A DNA stretch of 52,558 nucleotides from contig CAMCZA010000002.1 of NCBI GenBank assembly GCA_945885515.1, positions 1 to 52,558 on the forward strand. The letters are read 5' to 3'. The stretch comes from Ferrithrix thermotolerans DSM 19514 (GTDB lineage: Bacteria; Actinomycetota; Acidimicrobiia; Acidimicrobiales; Ilumatobacteraceae). The notes below the pieces were generated by a model. That model was not told the origin of the DNA. It saw nothing but the letters and a program-made list of their open reading frames with translations, and did not search any database. Every line of letters starts with the position of its first letter. Position 1 is the first letter of the stretch. Shown here piece after piece: positions 12,005 through 26,828 of this stretch. A program made the position numbers and the translations under genes.

Positions 12005-13120
12005 TTATTTCAGGAAAGACGGAAGGTCGTCATCGTCATCAGAGTTGACAAGTGGGTCGGACCCACCAAACATATCTTTGAGTCGTCCACCCTTGGATTC
12101 TTGACGAGCTGATGTGGATGACGAATTTGGTCGACCATCTGATCGCGTTGATGATTTGCTCGAGTTTCCGTCCCACCGGTCGAAACCTGCGGCGACAACG
12201 GTGATTCGAACTTCATCGTTAATATCGTCATCAATAACCAAACCATGAATGATATTTGCGTCTTGGTGCGCCACTCCACGCAAGATTTCCATTGCGTTTG
12301 TTACTTCAAATAAGCCAACATTTGATGGGCCGGTGATATTTACAATCAATCCACGAGCGCCTTCGAGCGAAGCCTCGAGTAGCGGAGAATTGATCGCTGC
12401 GTTTGCCGCAGTTATCGCGCGATTTTCACCCGTCGCAGCACCAGTACCCATTAGTGCGGTTCCTGCGTTTGCGAGAACAGTCTTGACATCAGCGAAGTCT
12501 GTATTTATTAACCCGGGTGTGGTGATCAGCCCAGTGATTCCTGCAACACCTTGCAACAACACATCATCTGCTTTCTTGAAAGCTTCAAGCAACGATGTCT
12601 TCTCGGTTGAGATTGTGAGCAGCCGCTCATTTGGAATTACTACCAATGTGTCAACTTTGTCTTTAAGTGCGAGAATGCCGGCATCCGCCTGCACAGCCCT
12701 ACGCCGACCTTCAAATGCAAATGGCCGAGTAACAATCGCAACTGTAAGCGCACCCTCTGCTCTGGCGATCTCGGCAACGATTGGTGCGGCACCAGTTCCT
12801 GTTCCTCCACCCTCACCGGCAGTGATGAACACCATGTCGGCGCCGGCAACAACTTCTTGAATTTCGTCTCGGTGCTGTTCGGCTGCTTGACGACCCACTT
12901 CTGGATCTGCGCCCGCACCCAAACCGCGAGTTAGCTCACGCCCGATATCAATTTTGATATTCGCATCACTAAGCAACAATTGCTGTGCATCAGTATTTAT
13001 TGCAACAAATTCGACGCCCCTCATGCCTGAGTCCATCATTCGATTGATTGCGTTGACTCCACCGCCACCGACACCGATGACCTTGATTACTGCGAGATAA
13101 TTTTGAGGCTGACCAGCCAT
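12005..13120 (-). CDS. ftsZ: Cell division GTPase FtsZ
   Basis: 371 residues, the tubulin homologue that forms the Z-ring. The nucleotide-binding G-box [10 protein letters not shown] is intact, as are [15 protein letters not shown] near the N-terminus and the T7 loop [12 protein letters not shown], which supplies catalytic residues to the neighbouring subunit. After the core comes a short Ser/Arg-rich linker and a C-terminal [10 protein letters not shown] peptide, the binding site for SepF and other partners. Start ATG 13120 has a GGGGG Shine-Dalgarno-like run about 10 bases upstream. The gene is preceded by a 112-bp gap with hexamer repeats. Confidence 0.98.
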
Positions 13121-13232: not shown

Positions 13233-15506
13233 CTACTTTGACTGGACGGTTGGTATGTCTGGGTTGGTCAAATCAATGAAAATTATTTGTTTGGCATCTT
13301 GTCGACGCAGTAGCACTACCAGAGATATCAATTTATTCTGCACATCCTGAGGTGGGCCAAAATTGACAAGTGTCCCAGAGCGCAATGTCATCACCAATTG
13401 ATTCGGCCCCCCTGTTCCGACATTCAGCACGACCTCTGAAAGTTCTGTTGGTAATCCCGTTGCCAGTTGGGCGGCAGCACGATAAATATCTCCTGCGCTG
13501 ACACCGGGCTCAAGATTCGGACCAACACCTGTGATTTGCAAATACTCTGTTGGCTGACCGGATTCAACTGCCAACACGCGTCCTTGAGAGTCAACAATTC
13601 GAGAGCTGTTGTCGCTACCGACGAACCACGCAACTGGCACTCTTTCGGCGACCTCAATCAGAATTTGTGACGGCAAAAACTTTTGAACCCTCACCGTCTC
13701 AACCCAAGGATCAACAAGCAATTGACTCTCTGCTTGGCGAGTATCAACCGTAAGTAGAGGCTTGCCAATCAAAGAATTCTTGACCGAATCAAGAAGTTCT
13801 TTACTCATGTAACGAGTGCCTTCAACTTCGATTTGACGAACACCAACTAGTGGCGACGAAAGAACTACTAGAGCAAGAACAACGAAGAGCCCTACTGCGG
13901 TCAACCCAAGTATCAGAGTTGATTTTTTGGTGCGTTTCTTTTTAAAGCCGAGTTCATCAGAATCTTCAAGTTTTAGATCGTCAATCAAAACCGCCGGGTC
14001 AGATGTTGGGGCGATGTTTACCGACTGCGTGAGAGCATCAATTGGAAAAGTGATGTCAGTTGGTAGACGCAATTCTGCGTCAATAATAATTATTCGGTCA
14101 GAATCGTCTTTGGTGGTTTTGAGAACTGCGCCAGAAACTATGTCCGCAACTGGATCAACAACAGATTCTGTCGAACTTGATTGCGTCAAAAAATCACTAC
14201 TTGCAGTAGCGCTCGTTGCAGTACTAGCTGTATCACTAGCTTCATCACTTGCGGCAGTTTGAGGATCTAATTTAAATACGGTTTGATCGTCAACTGATTC
14301 GCCTTGGTCAATAACGGGTTCGGCGAATAGATCTTCGTCAATGTGTACATCTGGCCTGACAATTCGCAAGTTGCTAATCGGCGTTTCGTTGCCTTCAAAT
14401 GCATCTTTTAATTCGGCCAACACATTCTCAGGGAGTCGTTCAGAAATTGCAGGAATCGGAATTGAAAGATCGGCTCCCGTCGAGACCCCGAATGCTTCGT
14501 CTAGTTGAGTACCAACTTTTCGCTGACTTAATGTTGGCGCCCCAGCATCAGCGCTAACGGCTGTTGAAAAACCAATAAGTCTTATCTCGCTACGCAATTC
14601 AACACCGTGCGATTCAAACACCCGCTGACGCACAAATGTCATCAATTGGGCAACGTCATCACCACTGCCACCTTCATCTGCCTGAATAAAGTTTGCATGT
14701 TTGTCCGAGACTGATGCGGAACCAATTCGATATCCACGCAGACCAAGACCATCAATTAGTTCGCCTGCCGCGGTTACCCCGGCGACTGGATTTACGAAAA
14801 CTGATCCTGCATTTTGCCCACCTGGCTGATTTTCTCTTCGCCACTTGACAATTTCAGATAGTCGACCTTGGCCGATAATCGTGTCTCCCCAATTCAGACG
14901 CAAAGTGGCTGAGATCACGATGTGCTCATCGGTCAAATCAGATCCTCTAAACCTCAAACCTAAGTTGGCTGCCGAAACATTTGCTTCAATTCCTCTTTCT
15001 AGATGAAACAGTCGAACACTCAACAACGAAGCGATCATGTCGGCGCCGTGCCCACCGGCGTTCATTCGCACTGCTCCACCGAGTGAGCCTGGAACACCAA
15101 CCGCCCATTCAAATCCAGAAAGCCCATGATGCACCGTTTGCCGAGCGAGAACTGGCAGTGGTGCCATTGCACCAGCAATCACAATCGGTGTTTCACCCTG
15201 TGTCGGCAAACTAATTAATTCTGTGAATGGTCCAAGCGTCACTGCAATTCCGCGAAAGCCACTGTCACTTACAAGAATGTTGCTGCCACGGCCAACAACA
15301 ACTACTGGTACTCGAATTTTTGTCAATGCCCGAGACAGCGAGTACAAATCTTCAACATTCATCACGCGCATAAACAGCGCGGCTGAACCACCAACTCGAT
15401 ACGTCGTGTACGGTCCAAGCGGTTCATCAGTGGTAACCCGATCGCCTAACAGTGACGCCAAACGCGATAGGTCTTTATCGCTTACATAGTTGATGTCTGT
15501 GATCAC
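13233..15506 (-). CDS. murB-ftsQ: MurB-FtsQ fusion: UDP-N-acetylenolpyruvoylglucosamine reductase fused to division protein FtsQ
   Basis: One uninterrupted frame. Residues 1-313 are MurB, the FAD enzyme that reduces UDP-GlcNAc-enolpyruvate to UDP-MurNAc: TTYRVGGSAALF, VVVGRGSNILVSDSGFRG, VPGSLGGAVRMNAGGHG, catalytic Ser in NQPGGQNAGSVFVNP (about residue 235) and Glu in VELRSEIRLIG (about 307). Residues 314-525 are an acidic, Ser/Thr/Ala-rich linker. Near 527-549 is one membrane segment, followed by a POTRA domain (VGVRQIEVEGTRYMSKELLDSV) and an FtsQ beta domain. MurB would thus be held at the divisome. GTG 15506 lies 4 bases past the murG-murC stop with AGGTG upstream; GTG 15524 is an alternative that adds six residues. 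Confidence 0.92.
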   Translation of the reverse strand: MITDINYVSDKDLSRLASLLGDRVTTDEPLGPYTTYRVGGSAALFMRVMNVEDLYSLSRALTKIRVPVVVVGRGSNILVSDSGFRGIAVTLGPFTELISLPTQGETPIVIAGAMAPLPVLARQTVHHGLSGFEWAVGVPGSLGGAVRMNAGGHGADMIASLLSVRLFHLERGIEANVSAANLGLRFRGSDLTDEHIVISATLRLNWGDTIIGQGRLSEIVKWRRENQPGGQNAGSVFVNPVAGVTAAGELIDGLGLRGYRIGSASVSDKHANFIQADEGGSGDDVAQLMTFVRQRVFESHGVELRSEIRLIGFSTAVSADAGAPTLSQRKVGTQLDEAFGVSTGADLSIPIPAISERLPENVLAELKDAFEGNETPISNLRIVRPDVHIDEDLFAEPVIDQGESVDDQTVFKLDPQTAASDEASDTASTATSATASSDFLTQSSSTESVVDPVADIVSGAVLKTTKDDSDRIIIIDAELRLPTDITFPIDALTQSVNIAPTSDPAVLIDDLKLEDSDELGFKKKRTKKSTLILGLTAVGLFVVLALVVLSSPLVGVRQIEVEGTRYMSKELLDSVKNSLIGKPLLTVDTRQAESQLLVDPWVETVRVQKFLPSQILIEVAERVPVAWFVGSDNSSRIVDSQGRVLAVESGQPTEYLQITGVGPNLEPGVSAGDIYRAAAQLATGLPTELSEVVLNVGTGGPNQLVMTLRSGTLVNFGPPQDVQNKLISLVVLLRRQDAKQIIFIDLTNPDIPTVQSK

Positions 15507-15510
15507 TGGC

Positions 15511-18084
15511 TCACACCTGCCCACGCAAAATTAATTCAGACGGAAGTGAGGAGATGTCGCCACACCCCATCGAAATACAAAGATCGCCAGATTTGAGTTG
15601 ACCATCTAAAAAGTCGATGAGTTGCTCGCGTGTTGCTTTGTATTCAACATTGGCTTTTGGGTTTGCCCGAAGAATCGCGTCCACAACAAGTTGCCCAGTT
15701 ACCCCAGCAATTTGAGTGGTGCCCGAGGCATAAATATCAGTCACGACTATCTGATCGGCCCCGACGAATGCATTTGCATAGAGATCAGAGATTAACGACA
15801 TTCGATTGAATCGATTTGGCTGAAATACCGCAACAATTCGACTCCATGAATCAGATGCATCGCGAGCACCAGCAAGGACGGATGAAATCTCATTTGGCAA
15901 GTGGGCATAATCATCAACAAATGTGATGCCGCGGTGCGTGCCGTGATGTTCGAAGCGTCTTGCAACACCGCCAAATTTAGCAAGCGCAGTCACGGAGTCG
16001 GCAAAACTTGCACCAAGTTGCATTGACATAACGAGTGCACCCATTGCATTGCGCACATTGTGAATACCCCGCAACGGGATTGTTACATCGCCGAGCACTT
16101 CAATCTCAGATAAACCTTCAGCAATTTTGTTTTTAGACACCGTGAAACGAGCCGAACCCGAATAAAACAAAATGTTGTCGGCGAAAAAGTCGGCTCGCGG
16201 CGAACTTTCGCCGCCATCATGGTCGACGATATCTTGCGAGGCCGAATATGTGATTGCACCATATTTCGTAGCAATTTCTGAACAAATCGGGTCGTCAATG
16301 CATAACACTTTCGGCCCGGAGATCTTTTGAATAAATTCTGCAAAACTTTCACCGATCGCGGCGAAAGTTTGAAAATTGTCCAAATGATCAATATCAATGT
16401 TGGTTAGAACAGCGCCTTTGAGCGGCAATTGAATGTGAGTCGAGTCACTCTCGTCTGCTTCAACTACAAACAATTCACTGCCTGACCAATGGGCACCACG
16501 ACCAAAGTCAATTACATCACCACCGATCAAATAATTAGGGTTCAGTTTTGCTTCAATCAAAATCGCTGTCAACATCGACGAAGTTGTGGTTTTTCCGTGC
16601 GTTCCCGCGACACCAATACTTTTTGCCATGGTGCAAATAGCACTCAAAATTTCGGCTCTTGTAAGAACTCGTATTTGCGACTCTCGCGCTTGAGAATATT
16701 CAATATTGCTGGCAGAAATTGCAGGAGAACCCGTGACCGCATCACAGCCAGTCACAGCCGCGCAGTCATGGCCAATATTAATTTTTATTTCTAAATTTCG
16801 CAGACGCTGAATTATCTCCGACTGTTTGACATCACTTCCAGAGACATCGTGACCCATTTCGGCGAGCACGGTAGCCACTGCCGACATACCAGGACCGCCG
16901 ACTCCGACCACATGTATTCTGCGTGGTTCTGAAAGATCAAATTTTTCTGCGTCACCAACAACATCTCGCACCAGCTGAATCAATTTATTGTTACGGTGAA
17001 CTTCACCCGCAATTCGTGAGGACTTTGTCATCATCGCAAGTTTATTTTTATTGTTGATCAAATTCGTGACTATTTCGGCAATTGCATCGGGTGTAAGTTT
17101 TGACTCATCAACAAGCACTGCCCCGCCAGAATCTGCCAGCCACTTAGCATTGTAGAATTGATGATTCTCCGCTGACTGCGGCCATGGAATGAGCACGCTG
17201 GCGCGACCAACAGTTGCCAATTCGGCAATTGTGCTGGCTCCTGCACGAGACACGATTAAATCGCTGGCAGAGAAAATATCTTCCATCGCATCTGTTTTTG
17301 CTAAACGCTTGTAAATAATTTCAGCACTCGCATCCAACCTCGGTACTTGTTCGCCAACAAATCTCTCACCCGTCAAGTGAATAATACATAAATCATTTTT
17401 ATTATTGTTTTGCTCAACAACTGTTTTGGCAACAGCATTTAGAAAAGACGATCCAAGCGAACCACCGACGAACGCAATGACCTTGCGCCCTAGTGGCAAC
17501 CCGAGTCGCTGCAACGCCGCATCTTTAGTTGCGTCGAGATCTAAGTTGCGCAGTAGTCGACGCACTGGAGCGCCAGTCAAGGTTGCATTTTTTAGTTTTG
17601 ACGGCAAATACGCAACGGAAGTTGCTGCAGCTTTGCGAGATTGCAATTTGGTTGCCAGCCCAGGAAGACGGTCATACGAAACCGTGACGACTGGGATGTC
17701 AAGGTTTGTTGCTGCCCTGGTCGCCGCAACGCTTCCATATCCGCCTACCGAAATTACAATTTTTGGTTGCAAAGCCTGCAAAAGTATTTCTGCTTGCATT
17801 ATTGCATTGCGCAGGGACAACACTGATTTAATATTTTGTCTCACTGCTTGGGGTGAAAAATTTCTTTTGAAGCCGTGCACATCCAAAAGCGTCATCGGTA
17901 TTTTTGCTGGTGGAACCAGTCTCGTTTCGACTCCATTGAGGGTTCCAACAAAGTGAAGATGCTCGGTTGCGTAACCATGATCGACCAATAATTCGGCAAT
18001 TGCCAGCGCCGGAATCACATGACCGCTGGTACCACCACCTGTGATCACCGCGAAGACGGATGTAGATGACCGAAAATTGTTCAA
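15511..18084 (-). CDS. murG-murC: MurG-MurC fusion: lipid II-forming glycosyltransferase fused to UDP-MurNAc-L-alanine ligase
   Basis: 857 residues from TTG 18084, chosen because AGGGG lies 7 bases upstream and the codon falls 23 bases after the ftsW stop. Residues 1 to about 380 are MurG: GGGTSGHVIPALA at 16-28, VISVGGYGSVAA, VGGSLGSSFLNAV, SRAGASTIAEL and ENHQFYNA. From about 388 it is MurC: RRIHVVGVGGPGMSAVA, P-loop GTHGKTTTS at 494-502, EADESDST, LTNIDIDHLDNF and VDDYAHLPNEI. No stop or frameshift separates them, and only about eight residues join the folds. MurG acts on lipid I at the membrane; MurC makes the first peptide addition in the cytoplasm, so the fusion links an early and the last cytoplasmic step. 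The MurG HEQN motif is replaced by SYDR. Confidence 0.93.
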   Translation of the reverse strand: MNNFRSSTSVFAVITGGGTSGHVIPALAIAELLVDHGYATEHLHFVGTLNGVETRLVPPAKIPMTLLDVHGFKRNFSPQAVRQNIKSVLSLRNAIMQAEILLQALQPKIVISVGGYGSVAATRAATNLDIPVVTVSYDRLPGLATKLQSRKAAATSVAYLPSKLKNATLTGAPVRRLLRNLDLDATKDAALQRLGLPLGRKVIAFVGGSLGSSFLNAVAKTVVEQNNNKNDLCIIHLTGERFVGEQVPRLDASAEIIYKRLAKTDAMEDIFSASDLIVSRAGASTIAELATVGRASVLIPWPQSAENHQFYNAKWLADSGGAVLVDESKLTPDAIAEIVTNLINNKNKLAMMTKSSRIAGEVHRNNKLIQLVRDVVGDAEKFDLSEPRRIHVVGVGGPGMSAVATVLAEMGHDVSGSDVKQSEIIQRLRNLEIKINIGHDCAAVTGCDAVTGSPAISASNIEYSQARESQIRVLTRAEILSAICTMAKSIGVAGTHGKTTTSSMLTAILIEAKLNPNYLIGGDVIDFGRGAHWSGSELFVVEADESDSTHIQLPLKGAVLTNIDIDHLDNFQTFAAIGESFAEFIQKISGPKVLCIDDPICSEIATKYGAITYSASQDIVDHDGGESSPRADFFADNILFYSGSARFTVSKNKIAEGLSEIEVLGDVTIPLRGIHNVRNAMGALVMSMQLGASFADSVTALAKFGGVARRFEHHGTHRGITFVDDYAHLPNEISSVLAGARDASDSWSRIVAVFQPNRFNRMSLISDLYANAFVGADQIVVTDIYASGTTQIAGVTGQLVVDAILRANPKANVEYKATREQLIDFLDGQLKSGDLCISMGCGDISSLPSELILRGQV

Positions 18085-18107
18085 AATATTGCCCCTGTGT
18101 TGAGCTC

Positions 18108-19304
18108 TCAATCCATATTCCGTGCAACATTGAGTAGCAAGCCGGTCGCAGACATACAAACTAATAACGAACTACCACCATAAGAAATAAGTGGCAGGGT
18201 TAAACCTGTCACTGGCATTGATCCAGAGACTCCGCCGATATTGATACACGCCTGTAGCGCAAACCACATCGTTACGCCACCAGCTAAAAGAGCACCAAAT
18301 TTATCTGCCGCACGCGTACTGGCCTGAAGACCGAACAAAGTCAAAATCAAAAAACCACCGATAACGAAAGTCACACCGACTAATCCGAATTCTTCTGCGA
18401 TCGTCGAAAAAATAAAATCGCTATGCGCTAGCGGCACATACCCCCACTTGCCTGTCCCGGCGCCAGCACCAACGCCAGTAACGCCGCCATTAGAAATAGA
18501 AAGTAACGACTGCCAAACTTGATAACCGTAAGTGCCTTTGGTTTCATCGAGATTCAAGAATGCAGTCCACCGGTTGCGCCGTGATGCACTTGAAAGTGTA
18601 AACAACATGCCGCCCAAGACCGACAGTGATGTCAACGAGAAAATAATTCTAAACGGTGTTCCCGCCATAAATAAAAGAGTCAGCACAATGCATGACAAAA
18701 TGATCGCACCACCCAAATCTTTTTGAACCAAACATAAGCCAACCGAAATTATCCAAACTCTAAAAACTGGTTTAAGTGTGCGCGTTAAATCAGTTATCTC
18801 GTCTTGCCTGCGACCCAGCAAGTTTGCGCAATAAACAAGCAGGGCTAATTTTAGAAACTCTGACGGTTGAAATCCCACCGGTCCTATTGCGACCCATGCG
18901 CGAGCACCATTAGTGCTCACACCAATATTGGGAGCGAATGGCAAGAGCATCAAACCGAAAGCAAAAATTATTGCTGGGAAAACTACTTTTCGAAGCAATA
19001 AGTAAGGGAACCTGTAGAAGAAGATCATTCCGACCATGCCAACGCTTGACCACATCAACTGTTTGAAAAACATTCTCCACGGAGACATTCCTTTGTTGAG
19101 CGCAACAATTGAAGATGACGACAACACCATCACCAGACCGAAAGTAATCAGAGCAATAACAGTTATCAAAATCCAAAATAAAGTTGAGTTCGCAGCACCC
19201 AGTGATGTTGCACGAGTTTCAAGTATTCCCTGCTCTTGCAACACATCTCGGCGGCGATCATTTAAAGTTTGTGTGCGACCTGAGTTTGGAGTTGTCGTAC
19301 TCAT
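18108..19304 (-). CDS. ftsW: Septal peptidoglycan glycosyltransferase FtsW
   Basis: 398 residues, SEDS-family polytopic membrane protein that polymerises lipid II with FtsI at the septum. About ten hydrophobic segments are visible after a ~35-residue cytoplasmic N-terminus. Family signatures are GARAWVAIGPVGFQPSEFLKLAL, YQVWQSLLSISNGGVTGVG, HSDFIFSTIAEEFGLVGV (with the catalytic-region Asp/Glu) and the final PVTGLTLPLISYGGSSLL. The start overlaps the murD stop by four bases (ATGA). RodA is the close alternative, but position between murD and murG identifies FtsW. Confidence 0.96.
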   Translation of the reverse strand: MSTTTPNSGRTQTLNDRRRDVLQEQGILETRATSLGAANSTLFWILITVIALITFGLVMVLSSSSIVALNKGMSPWRMFFKQLMWSSVGMVGMIFFYRFPYLLLRKVVFPAIIFAFGLMLLPFAPNIGVSTNGARAWVAIGPVGFQPSEFLKLALLVYCANLLGRRQDEITDLTRTLKPVFRVWIISVGLCLVQKDLGGAIILSCIVLTLLFMAGTPFRIIFSLTSLSVLGGMLFTLSSASRRNRWTAFLNLDETKGTYGYQVWQSLLSISNGGVTGVGAGAGTGKWGYVPLAHSDFIFSTIAEEFGLVGVTFVIGGFLILTLFGLQASTRAADKFGALLAGGVTMWFALQACINIGGVSGSMPVTGLTLPLISYGGSSLLVCMSATGLLLNVARNMD

Positions 19305-23168: not shown

Positions 23169-25124
23169 TCAGCGCACCGGACCAAGCTCGGCTGGACGAG
23201 GCCCAACACAGCCGGCGTCTCCTGCGGGAGGACGAATATTTAATTCATTGATTAATACCTGACCAATTCGAGCAAAGACTGGAGCAGCAGCCCTACCACC
23301 GAAACGATCTTTGGCCGTTGGATCTGGTTCATCAATTGACACCAAAACTGTCATTTGCGGATTGCCTGCTGGCAGAAAACCGGCAAAAGATGCAAAGTAC
23401 GCGAATGTTCCATCATCTGCCTCGTACTTGCCGTTGCTCTGAAGTTTGTAAGCGGTTCCAGTTTTTCCTGCGACGCTCATTCCAGAAAGTTGGGCAAGTG
23501 TTCCGGTTCCGTGACAGACGACATCCGTCATCATTCCGGCCATTGTCTTTGCTGTTGCTTCGCTCACGACCTGGCGCTTCTCGGACGCCGGCAAATTCTT
23601 CGAAACACCGTTTGCGTCAAGTGTTGACATTATTAGTTTCGGCGCAACATAAACACCTTTATTCGCAACGGTGTTCACTGCAGAGATCAGTTGCAAACCA
23701 CTGGCTGTATAGCCGTAGCCATAGGCAAAAGTAATCTTTTCAGTACCTTGCCAATCTTTTGCTGGCTTGAGTACTCCACGCGACTCATTTGGGTAGTTCA
23801 ACGGAGTCTTTACACCAAATCCGAACATCTTTAGATAATCATGATTTATTTCATTACTCAAAGTTCGTGAAATTATGACGGTTCCATTATTTGACGAGTC
23901 AACAAAAATTTTGCGAACGGTCATATCTTCTATCGGGTGAACATAGCCGTCAGAAACTTTGTACTCCCACTGGGTTCCCTTGTCATAGGTCTCTTGATAT
24001 GGGACCGTAAAAGTCGAGGCGGCATCTATTTTGCCTTCATTGATTGCTGCAGCAATGCTGAAAACTTTTGCCACGGACCCAGGCTCGTGAGATTCAATCG
24101 TTGAAAAGTTTCCAGACTCACTTGAATAACTTCCATCGTTGTTACGACGAATATTTGACATCGCATATATTTCACCCGTGTCCGTATCCATCACGATCAC
24201 CGAACCACCGCGAGCGCCAACAAATAAGACCTGCTGATAGAGAATCGAGTCAACTTGAAACTGGATTGTCCGGTCAATTGAAGTGACCAGTCTTTCTCCG
24301 GCAATTGCCTCGGTTACATCACTTGCACCTGCCGCCATTGACTTTCCACTTGCATTTACTTCGCGCGCAATTCGACCATCTTTGCCCGCAAGTAATTCTT
24401 GATACTGAAGTTCAAGACCAGAGATTCCAAGTCCATCAATATCTGTGCGCCCGACAAGCGCCAGCAACCCACTGCTTGTAAGAGCACGACCCGATTCGCG
24501 ATACGACGAAACACCTTTAAGACCGAGGGCGACAATAGTGTCAGCAATTTTTTGATCTGCCTGACGAGCCAAATACACAAAACTTGAAGACTTGTCTCGC
24601 ATCTTGATCGCCAATTCAAGTTCACTTTCTGGGGATAGGCGCATGATTCCTGCGACTACCCTGGCAACACCTTCTGGATCAATAACCGACCGAGGATCAG
24701 CAAAAACAGTGCGTGTCGGAATTGGCAGCGCTAGTTCACGACCATTTCTGTCAAGGATTGAGCCCCGCTCTGCGCGCAATGTTTGCACGCGGGTGCGTTG
24801 AGAGATACTCGCATCGCGATAATCACTTGCCCACTTAGTTTGCAACAGTGCAACGCGAACTCCGAGCCCAAACAACATTAGAGCTACGACCGAAAACATT
24901 ATTCGTGTGCGTTTACGCATCACTCCGGCCTTCAGGTCTTTAGTGAACGCATCGTAACCTTTGCCGATTAGCGAATTGGATCGATACGAAACCCCAGCGA
25001 TGTTCTCGCGGCGAGTATTCATTGCTCGAGCCTCGCGCTTGGAAACTCGACCGCCACTTGTAACTTTTTTGCGCTTGGATGCGCTGACACTATTTACTCG
25101 ACTCGCGCGAAGCGATTGGCTCAT
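23169..25124 (-). CDS. ftsI: Septal transpeptidase FtsI (PBP3, class B)
   Basis: 651 residues. A basic cytoplasmic N-terminus of about 73 residues precedes one membrane anchor (about 74-95), the PBP dimerisation domain (RAERGSILDRNGRELA at ~118-132) and the transpeptidase domain. The active-site serine is Ser350 in EPGSVAKVF (S-x-x-K), with SSN near 410-412 and KTGTA in SVAGKTGTAYKLQ. FtsI crosslinks septal peptidoglycan with FtsW. ATG 25124 overlaps the stop of the ftsL-like gene by four bases. Confidence 0.96.
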   Translation of the reverse strand: MSQSLRASRVNSVSASKRKKVTSGGRVSKREARAMNTRRENIAGVSYRSNSLIGKGYDAFTKDLKAGVMRKRTRIMFSVVALMLFGLGVRVALLQTKWASDYRDASISQRTRVQTLRAERGSILDRNGRELALPIPTRTVFADPRSVIDPEGVARVVAGIMRLSPESELELAIKMRDKSSSFVYLARQADQKIADTIVALGLKGVSSYRESGRALTSSGLLALVGRTDIDGLGISGLELQYQELLAGKDGRIAREVNASGKSMAAGASDVTEAIAGERLVTSIDRTIQFQVDSILYQQVLFVGARGGSVIVMDTDTGEIYAMSNIRRNNDGSYSSESGNFSTIESHEPGSVAKVFSIAAAINEGKIDAASTFTVPYQETYDKGTQWEYKVSDGYVHPIEDMTVRKIFVDSSNNGTVIISRTLSNEINHDYLKMFGFGVKTPLNYPNESRGVLKPAKDWQGTEKITFAYGYGYTASGLQLISAVNTVANKGVYVAPKLIMSTLDANGVSKNLPASEKRQVVSEATAKTMAGMMTDVVCHGTGTLAQLSGMSVAGKTGTAYKLQSNGKYEADDGTFAYFASFAGFLPAGNPQMTVLVSIDEPDPTAKDRFGGRAAAPVFARIGQVLINELNIRPPAGDAGCVGPRPAELGPVR

Positions 25125-25828
25125 GGTGCCGAACCAGTGGTCTCTAAAATTAAGTCATCTGATGTTTTTGGCTTGGCGATTGCCTCGTCCATTTCGCCAG
25201 TTGAAGCAAGCACCATTGTCACAACTTCAGCCGGCACATCTTCAAATTTTGCACCAGAACCCGGCCACATTCCCAAGATGATTGCTTGCGCCCTTAAATA
25301 ATCTGGCGCCCGCAACTCTGCTCTTTGCTGTCGCAATTCGTTGTAGTGCTGGCGGGCAAGTCGCACATCGGTGCTAACTCTGTCCAAGCGAAGTTGTTGT
25401 TCGGCAATAACTGTTTGAAAAATCACGATGAATGCAAGCACCGATGTGAGCACAACTATCAGCGTCGTTGCTTTTGAAAACTTTGATTTCGTAATTGGCC
25501 TGACTACCCGAAGTTCAGGCGGATTAGCTTTGCGTCGCGTGGCTTGTCGAGCGACTGGTCGCGTAACTTGTTGAGCGACTGGTCGCGTAACTGGTCGAGC
25601 AACTTGTTGCGGTACTGGTCGCGTAACTTGACGAGCAACTTGACGAGTTACTGGTCGAGTAACTGACTGGGTACCACCACGAGCGACTTGTCGAGCAACT
25701 GGTCGAGCGACTGGTCTCGTAACTTGTCGAGTGACTGGCTGCGTATTATTGCGCTTTCTCGCCCGATGCACTGGCTCTGTTCGTAGGTGACGAACAGGTG
25801 GCTGGCGATGCTCCATTGCCGCCGACAT
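25121..25828 (-). CDS. ftsL: FtsL/DivIC-like septum protein with V-[TA]-R-[PQ] repeat region
   Basis: 235 residues from ATG 25828, one base after the rsmH stop. The layout is a basic N-terminus (1-31), about 17 tetrapeptides of the form V-[TA]-R-[PQ] (about 32-99), a further basic stretch, one membrane segment (about 120-141: TTLIVVLTSVLAFIVIFQTVIA), then a coiled coil (about 143-180, with RLDRVSTDVRLARQHYNELRQQRAEL) and a short acidic extracytoplasmic tail. Position between rsmH and ftsI plus TM-coiled-coil topology identify it as FtsL; sequence identity in this family is always low. Ordinary FtsL is 100-150 residues, so the cytoplasmic repeat region is an unusual addition. Confidence 0.8.
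   Translation of the reverse strand: MSAAMEHRQPPVRHLRTEPVHRARKRNNTQPVTRQVTRPVARPVARQVARGGTQSVTRPVTRQVARQVTRPVPQQVARPVTRPVAQQVTRPVARQATRRKANPPELRVVRPITKSKFSKATTLIVVLTSVLAFIVIFQTVIAEQQLRLDRVSTDVRLARQHYNELRQQRAELRAPDYLRAQAIILGMWPGSGAKFEDVPAEVVTMVLASTGEMDEAIAKPKTSDDLILETTGSAP
25532..25735 (-). repeat. 12-bp coding tandem repeat in the ftsL-like gene
   Basis: About 17 units of 12 bp encode V-[TA]-R-[PQ] tetrapeptides, with a few variants (GTQS, VPQQ, VAQQ). The repeat gives an arginine- and proline-rich, positively charged cytoplasmic segment. On the + strand it appears as repeated CGAGCAACTTG- and CGAGTAACTGG-like words. It is in frame throughout and is not a CRISPR array. Confidence 0.88.
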
Positions 25829-25829
25829 T

Positions 25830-26828
25830 TCAGCCCACCGCCCCGGCAAAAGTTTTTTCAATGACCCGCAGTCGTGCAGATTTTGCACGCCGATTTTCAG
25901 ACTGTTCTATATCGCTTGGATGCTGAGAAATTCGCACCCGCCGACCTCGTCGCTGACCTAGTTGAGACTCATGCACAAACGGTGATCCAATTTTTGGTTC
26001 ATCGGTGTCATTTTCCGCAGATCGAAATACTTGTTTAACTATTCGATTTTCTCCAGAGTGGTAAGTCAAAACAGCGACGCGCCCACCGACGTTGGTGGCG
26101 TCTATTGCGGTTTGCAACGCCTGCGCAAGAATCTCGAGTTCTTTATTTACTTCAATACGAATTGCTTGAAATGTCCGCTTTGCAGGGTGCCCTCCGGTTC
26201 TGCGCGCTGGCGCAGGAATTGCCGAGACAATAATTTCTGCCAAGTGAATAGTCGTATTAATAGGTCGAGCAGCGACAATTGCGCGGGCAATGCGACGCGC
26301 AAATCGCTCATCGGCATTGCTGGCGATCAAATGTGCCAACTCCGACTCTTCGTAAGTATTTACCACATCAGCAGCGCTTACTTCACCGCGCTGATCCATT
26401 CGCATGTCAAGTGGTCCATCATTGCGATACGAAAATCCGCGCTCTGCAATATCTAATTGCGGAGAAGAAACACCTAGATCAAAAAGCGCGCCAGAGATTT
26501 GATCTATTGATAACTCTGCTAATACTTGGTTTAGAGAATCGAAACGAGCCCTTCGAATTGTCAGGCGACCATGAACCGAAGGGTCTTCGACGATCATTTT
26601 TTGTGCATTGGCAACTGCAAACGCATCTTGATCTAACCCCAAAATTTGTAGCGAAGGATGGGCTTTCAAAATTGCTTTTGAGTGTCCGCCAAGACCAAAT
26701 GTTGCATCAACAACAACACCAGCAGGAACCGTGGCGAAACATTCAACAATCTCGTCGACCATCACGGGGTCGTGTGAATTAGAAATCGAATCAGATGATT
26801 TGGACTGTGAGTTTTTTTGACTTGTCAT
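25830..26828 (-). CDS. rsmH: 16S rRNA (cytosine(1402)-N4)-methyltransferase RsmH (MraW)
   Basis: 332 residues from ATG 26828; a GTG six codons upstream (26846) is a possible alternative. RsmH uses S-adenosylmethionine to methylate C1402 in the decoding centre. Motifs seen are HDPVMVDEIVECF, VVDATFGLGGHSKAIL (SAM-binding glycine loop), LFDLGVSSPQLDIAERGFSYRNDGPLDMRMD, HPAKRTFQAIRIEVNKELE and LTYHSGENRIVKQVF. It is second in the dcw cluster, following a 217-bp structured spacer after mraZ. Confidence 0.96.
   Translation of the reverse strand: MTSQKNSQSKSSDSISNSHDPVMVDEIVECFATVPAGVVVDATFGLGGHSKAILKAHPSLQILGLDQDAFAVANAQKMIVEDPSVHGRLTIRRARFDSLNQVLAELSIDQISGALFDLGVSSPQLDIAERGFSYRNDGPLDMRMDQRGEVSAADVVNTYEESELAHLIASNADERFARRIARAIVAARPINTTIHLAEIIVSAIPAPARRTGGHPAKRTFQAIRIEVNKELEILAQALQTAIDATNVGGRVAVLTYHSGENRIVKQVFRSAENDTDEPKIGSPFVHESQLGQRRGRRVRISQHPSDIEQSENRRAKSARLRVIEKTFAGAVG

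Follow-up and report, generated by a model that had tools for sequence, protein, structure and literature searches.

Introduction

Fusions between enzymes of peptidoglycan precursor synthesis are on record in several combinations, including MurE-MurF of Bordetella, MurG/MurC, MurC/Ddl, MraY/MurG and MurB/MurC (PMC6420597), and a MurB/MurC fusion is known in Verrucomicrobium spinosum (PMC4803751). In Caulobacter the localisation of Mur enzymes is reported to resemble that of MurG, and in Bordetella MurG is described as a scaffold for the Mur ligases (PMC6420597).

We describe here an open frame in which MurB continues into the division protein FtsQ. The V. spinosum protein resembles it in that MurB is in frame with a neighbouring peptidoglycan protein in one lineage only (PMC4803751), although its partner is a cytoplasmic enzyme, with neither an FtsQ tail nor a membrane helix. 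The other recorded fusions likewise join neighbouring peptidoglycan genes, and the listed MurG/MurC is the same pair as that of the gene adjoining ours, but MurB/FtsQ is not listed (PMC6420597), and here an enzyme is joined to a membrane-crossing structural protein of the division apparatus. Nearer comparisons come from the same family, the Ilumatobacteraceae. Sister genera have MurC-MurB and MurG-MurC-MurB fusions of the same neighbouring genes, but in these MurB is joined upstream to MurC and FtsQ is separate. The stand-alone FtsQ/DivIB proteins of other Ilumatobacteraceae have the same POTRA and beta domains, a similar long acidic tail and in many cases a VLxELxxAF motif, but each has its own gene and start, often overlapping the MurB stop.

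We found no description of a MurB/FtsQ fusion in the open-access literature, and the mention of 'murB-ftsQ' in the literature examined refers to gene order. The present case has the property expected of a Mur fusion, namely one open frame conserved in relatives that have no separate copies, and we rate MurB/FtsQ as a new pairing among the already known fusions of Mur enzymes.

Results

The window (the whole stretch of DNA analysed, 52,558 nucleotides) has on its minus strand a dcw cluster encoding, in order, MraZ, MraW, a penicillin-binding transpeptidase, a Mur ligase, MraY, a MurD-like ligase, FtsW, MurG-MurC, MurB-FtsQ and FtsZ. Between the MraW and penicillin-binding protein genes, the usual position of FtsL, lies a 255-residue frame (25121-25888, minus strand) that has no Pfam match and is an FtsL candidate. 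The minus-strand open frame at 13233-15524 encodes MurB, approximately 210 acidic and mostly disordered residues, a membrane helix and FtsQ. Counted from the first GTG (15524) the product has 763 residues, but the GTG at 15506, in frame and a few nucleotides past the MurC stop (15511), is the likelier start. The features of the locus are as follows.

13233-15506, minus strand: MurB-FtsQ fusion gene (GTG start at 15506; 757 codons and a stop)
14574-15380, minus strand: MurB domains (FAD_binding_4, 15380-15009; MurB_C, 14864-14574)
13935-14570, minus strand: acidic linker of ~212 residues between the MurB domain and the membrane helix
14394-14429, minus strand: short conserved helix, VLAELKDAF (pattern VLxELxxAF), common to split FtsQ tails
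14010-14099, minus strand: second conserved tail motif, RIIIIDAELRLPTD..FP
13854-13928, minus strand: single FtsQ membrane helix, with KKKRTKK just before it (sequence and predicted helix)
13641-13841, minus strand: FtsQ-type POTRA domain (Pfam)
13236-13640, minus strand: FtsQ C-terminal beta domain (fold prediction and structure matches)
12005-13120, minus strand: ftsZ, a separate gene downstream of MurB-FtsQ
15511-18159, minus strand: MurG-MurC fusion gene (MurG about 18051-16993; MurC about 16920-15532)

Pfam places FAD_binding_4, MurB_C and the FtsQ-type POTRA domain in that order within the single frame, each above its cut-off, and the original prediction of an in-frame MurB-FtsQ fusion is borne out jointly by these domains, by the predicted folds and by the relatives. 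In the MurB part the FAD-binding and MurB C-terminal domains exceed their curated cut-offs, as does TIGR00179. Three residues (R187, S235 and E307 in the 757-residue numbering) are invariant in an alignment of 37 fused proteins and align with active-site positions of solved MurB sequences; we take them to be the active-site Arg, Ser and Glu of MurB, the catalytic roles being assigned from general knowledge. As judged from its sequence, the MurB half is probably an intact enzyme.

The C-terminal part has the organization of FtsQ, with a single helix oriented N-in, followed by POTRA and beta domains, and a position in the dcw cluster beside ftsZ. It scores 69.8 bits against the NCBIfam FtsQ equivalog PRK05529, which is below the cut-off of 353. 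FtsQ sequences are poorly conserved across lineages, and the assignment therefore draws on the presence of a POTRA domain, on the fold and on adjacency to ftsZ. The KKKRTKK segment ahead of the helix, together with the known topology of FtsQ, places the N-terminus, and hence MurB, in the cytoplasm.

AlphaFold2, run on the alignment of 37 fusions (mean pLDDT 70), predicts a MurB fold, a low-confidence stretch at residues 368-527, a long helix at 523-550 and a POTRA/beta fold. Within the disordered part there are only short helices, one of which (360-371) covers VLAELKDAF. In Foldseek searches MurB crystal structures match best, with FtsQ structures next, FtsQ-FtsB complexes among them.

The architecture is not peculiar to one assembly. 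We compared MurB_C and POTRA_1 frames in 150 Ilumatobacteraceae genomes and found that a single frame holds both domains in 13/13 genomes of g1, the genus of the window, and in 11/12 in each of two further genera (g5 and g9). The exceptions, G096 and G130, were considered as unfused genomes and rejected, the locus being cut at a contig end, such that all 35 of the assessable genomes sampled in the three genera are fused. The remaining 24 genera of the family show no such fusion, the domains lying in different frames wherever both are found. With the fusion alignment as query, searches of 246 genomes from the phylum and 119 from the class gave full-length matches in G000 and G005 and in no others. 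MurB also lies in a long open frame in some other actinobacteria; those checked (L127-L132) were discarded as fusion candidates because MurB and FtsQ are in different frames. The named relatives with related loci belong to the Ilumatobacteraceae, acIV and Acidimicrobiaceae, and most of their assemblies come from lakes or other waters. In the genome containing the window, as in its fused relatives, MurB_C and POTRA_1 each have a single match; no second murB or ftsQ was found in the window's genome, a fragmented assembly that is 81.6% complete, although the sole-copy result recurs across its relatives. Fragmentation of this kind is what might lead one to suspect an assembly error or frameshift artefact joining two genes, but the identical architecture of relatives from many assemblies (43 of the 76 related loci with both domains have them in one frame, in addition to the consistency within the three genera) rules this out with near certainty.

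A further consideration is whether the frame yields one protein or two. FtsQ might additionally, or solely, be produced apart from MurB through an internal start or by cleavage of the tail, which is long, disordered and hence open to proteases, and some in-frame TTG and GTG codons are present in the window's tail. However, there is no in-frame ATG in the window from residue 315 to residue 573, in the POTRA domain, and a 44-row codon alignment contains no conserved start codon in a start-like context, nor an evident ribosome-binding site, in the linker region; the best start-like columns are GTG or TTG codons for a conserved V or L within the helix motif or the membrane helix. Pooled pN/pS values are 0.07-0.16 for MurB, 0.11-0.34 for the junction, 0.03-0.22 for the helix motif, 0.16-0.48 for the mid-tail and 0.06-0.21 for FtsQ, which argues that the whole stretch from MurB to FtsQ is selected as protein. 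We therefore reject an internal translation start, and consider separate production of FtsQ by either route to be improbable.

The linker was originally described as disordered and acidic, which is correct (41 D+E compared to 15 K+R). It is not an acquisition made for the fusion: the FtsQ of split relatives already carries a long acidic tail. The alternative frames of the linker contain 10 stops in +1 and 28 in +2. The first ~35 residues resemble a MurB C-terminal extension of the split sister genera (TRLEACL and EKLDAYL, for example, are similar to the early linker segment GTQLDEAFG), and the remainder resembles the ancestral cytoplasmic tail of FtsQ. The median tail length is 161 residues in split FtsQ and 182 in fused proteins, both of these values depending on how we trimmed the tails. 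The helix-motif pattern is present in 38/59 split tails (shuffle mean 0.01) and in 38/47 fused tails (shuffle mean 0.03), and variants such as AVAELHELF explain several of the tails outside it. Split tails carrying it include those of L054, L073, L099 and L107, and it is specific to the family within our sample; elsewhere in the order and class, FtsQ tails are mostly short. A strict pattern for the second motif matches a minority of tails only, so we are less sure of this motif's homology between fused and split proteins than of the helix motif's. The helix predates the fusion, and the linker consists mainly of the long cytoplasmic tail already present on the FtsQ of split relatives.

A FastTree phylogeny of FtsZ, FtsW, MurC and MurG (1,491 columns, 98 loci; MurB and FtsQ were left out) places the 39 fused loci and three cut at contig ends in a single clade with support of 1.0. 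Split genes occur outside this clade only and show the ancestral state, so that, with the internal start rejected, neither of the two observations named in the original prediction as counting against it applies. The tree shows that the MurB-FtsQ fusion arose once, in the ancestor of three genera, and was kept. In split relatives the stop of MurB and the start of FtsQ often share an ATGA, an arrangement that puts murB and ftsQ in different frames, and a small indel close to their boundary would be enough to fuse them; most likely, a small frame change at abutting genes removed the MurB stop.

The neighbouring MurG-MurC gene, whose frame is TTG-initiated and may truly start further in, is also a real fusion. 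MurG-MurC forms a nested clade (21/21 loci) and is absent from two of the three fused genera, and its distribution is that of a separate, later event within the MurB-FtsQ clade. The sister-genus loci (L053, L083, L103, L107, L109 and L110), which have triple MurG-MurC-MurB (about 1,164-1,212 residues) or MurC-MurB fusions with FtsQ separate, group in the tree with low support. FtsW and MurG often overlap by 4 nt and are never fused, and there are no ftsQ-ftsZ fusions across the loci examined.

This history is compatible with the fusion being a fixed accident of abutting genes, bringing no gain and made harmless by the pre-existing long FtsQ tail. The single origin, the ancestral tail and the stop/start overlaps all fit such an account, as do the small genomes of the fused genera (about 1.2-2.2 Mb) and the further neighbour fusions that arose in the same part of the tree. 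On the other hand, reversion is not seen across the three genera and the junction is conserved, and no full-length fusion match was obtained in the most reduced genomes among those sampled from the class (0.7-1.1 Mb), so that genome reduction alone is not a sufficient cause. We regard a wholly neutral origin as a serious contender, albeit at somewhat less than even odds; the fusion may in the main be something that streamlined, gene-dense genomes produced and then tolerated.

Discussion

The reading that we favor, and which we think quite probable, is that of a single bifunctional protein of one origin, in which MurB is membrane-anchored through the FtsQ tail and follows FtsQ, with its soluble product still feeding elongation. 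An intact cytoplasmic MurB would be held at the inner face of the membrane by the long disordered tail, with the POTRA and beta domains of FtsQ outside. The tethering, and the equimolarity of MurB and FtsQ, would follow from the gene structure and topology provided that the protein stays intact; cleavage of the tail would release MurB from the membrane. As a divisome protein, FtsQ moves to the septum, and the cell's only MurB, now membrane-bound, would be expected to travel with it to the division site during septation; septal enrichment of MurB-FtsQ is thus likely during division. We infer both this enrichment and any benefit from it, and a benefit is plausible in light of the Mur localisation and scaffolding reported in Caulobacter and Bordetella (PMC6420597). 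Judged by the length of the tether, MurB could possibly reach FtsW/FtsI-side complexes.

A stronger version, put forward in the original prediction, is that the fusion, together with MurG-MurC, was selected for concentrating UDP-MurNAc synthesis at the division machinery. The attachment of MurB to the cytoplasmic end of a divisome protein speaks for this, as do the Caulobacter and Bordetella findings just cited and the repeated fusion within the family of murG, murC, murB and ftsQ, as opposed to the often-overlapping ftsW and murG. However, two MreB-family genes are retained in the fused genera, along with a second member of the FtsW/RodA family, which in G000 sits on contig C8 some 4 kb away from an MreB gene. 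This implies that the sole MurB must supply elongation as well. UDP-MurNAc is moreover a small, soluble molecule that diffuses, so that exclusive supply to the septum is unlikely. The absence of MurG-MurC from two of the fused genera, and the sister clade in which MurB was joined to MurC and FtsQ left separate, weigh in the same direction. We consider adaptive septal recruitment rather unlikely, and treat the recruitment of UDP-MurNAc synthesis to the septum as a hypothesis. The idea that MurB is tethered at the septum because elongation was lost is rejected, given the presence of the MreB and RodA-family genes. A more speculative idea, to which we give little credence, is that the substrate or flavin state of MurB, sensed via the tail helix, could influence FtsQ and septal wall synthesis, or that the enzyme could locally feed septal MurC/MurG complexes.

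Whichever of these applies, the bifunctional protein that we propose amounts to a natural experiment: an essential wall enzyme that is normally soluble would be permanently bound to a divisome protein, with the MurB:FtsQ ratio fixed at one-to-one. It suggests that a long disordered FtsQ tail can bear a whole enzyme with the essential function kept, and the VLxELxxAF helix within that tail is an unstudied candidate binding site. The old idea of 'genomic channeling' for the dcw cluster also becomes testable, in that one can ask whether a tie between a precursor enzyme and the division machinery is helpful or merely tolerated.

Lastly, we note that the sampled g1, g5 and g9 genomes have two FtsW/RodA-family genes, and that most relatives have three. 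In many genera with larger genomes an additional DivIVA-like gene lies close to the dcw cluster (e.g. G012:C1:2168062), and the fused genera have a single DivIVA match, situated away from it.
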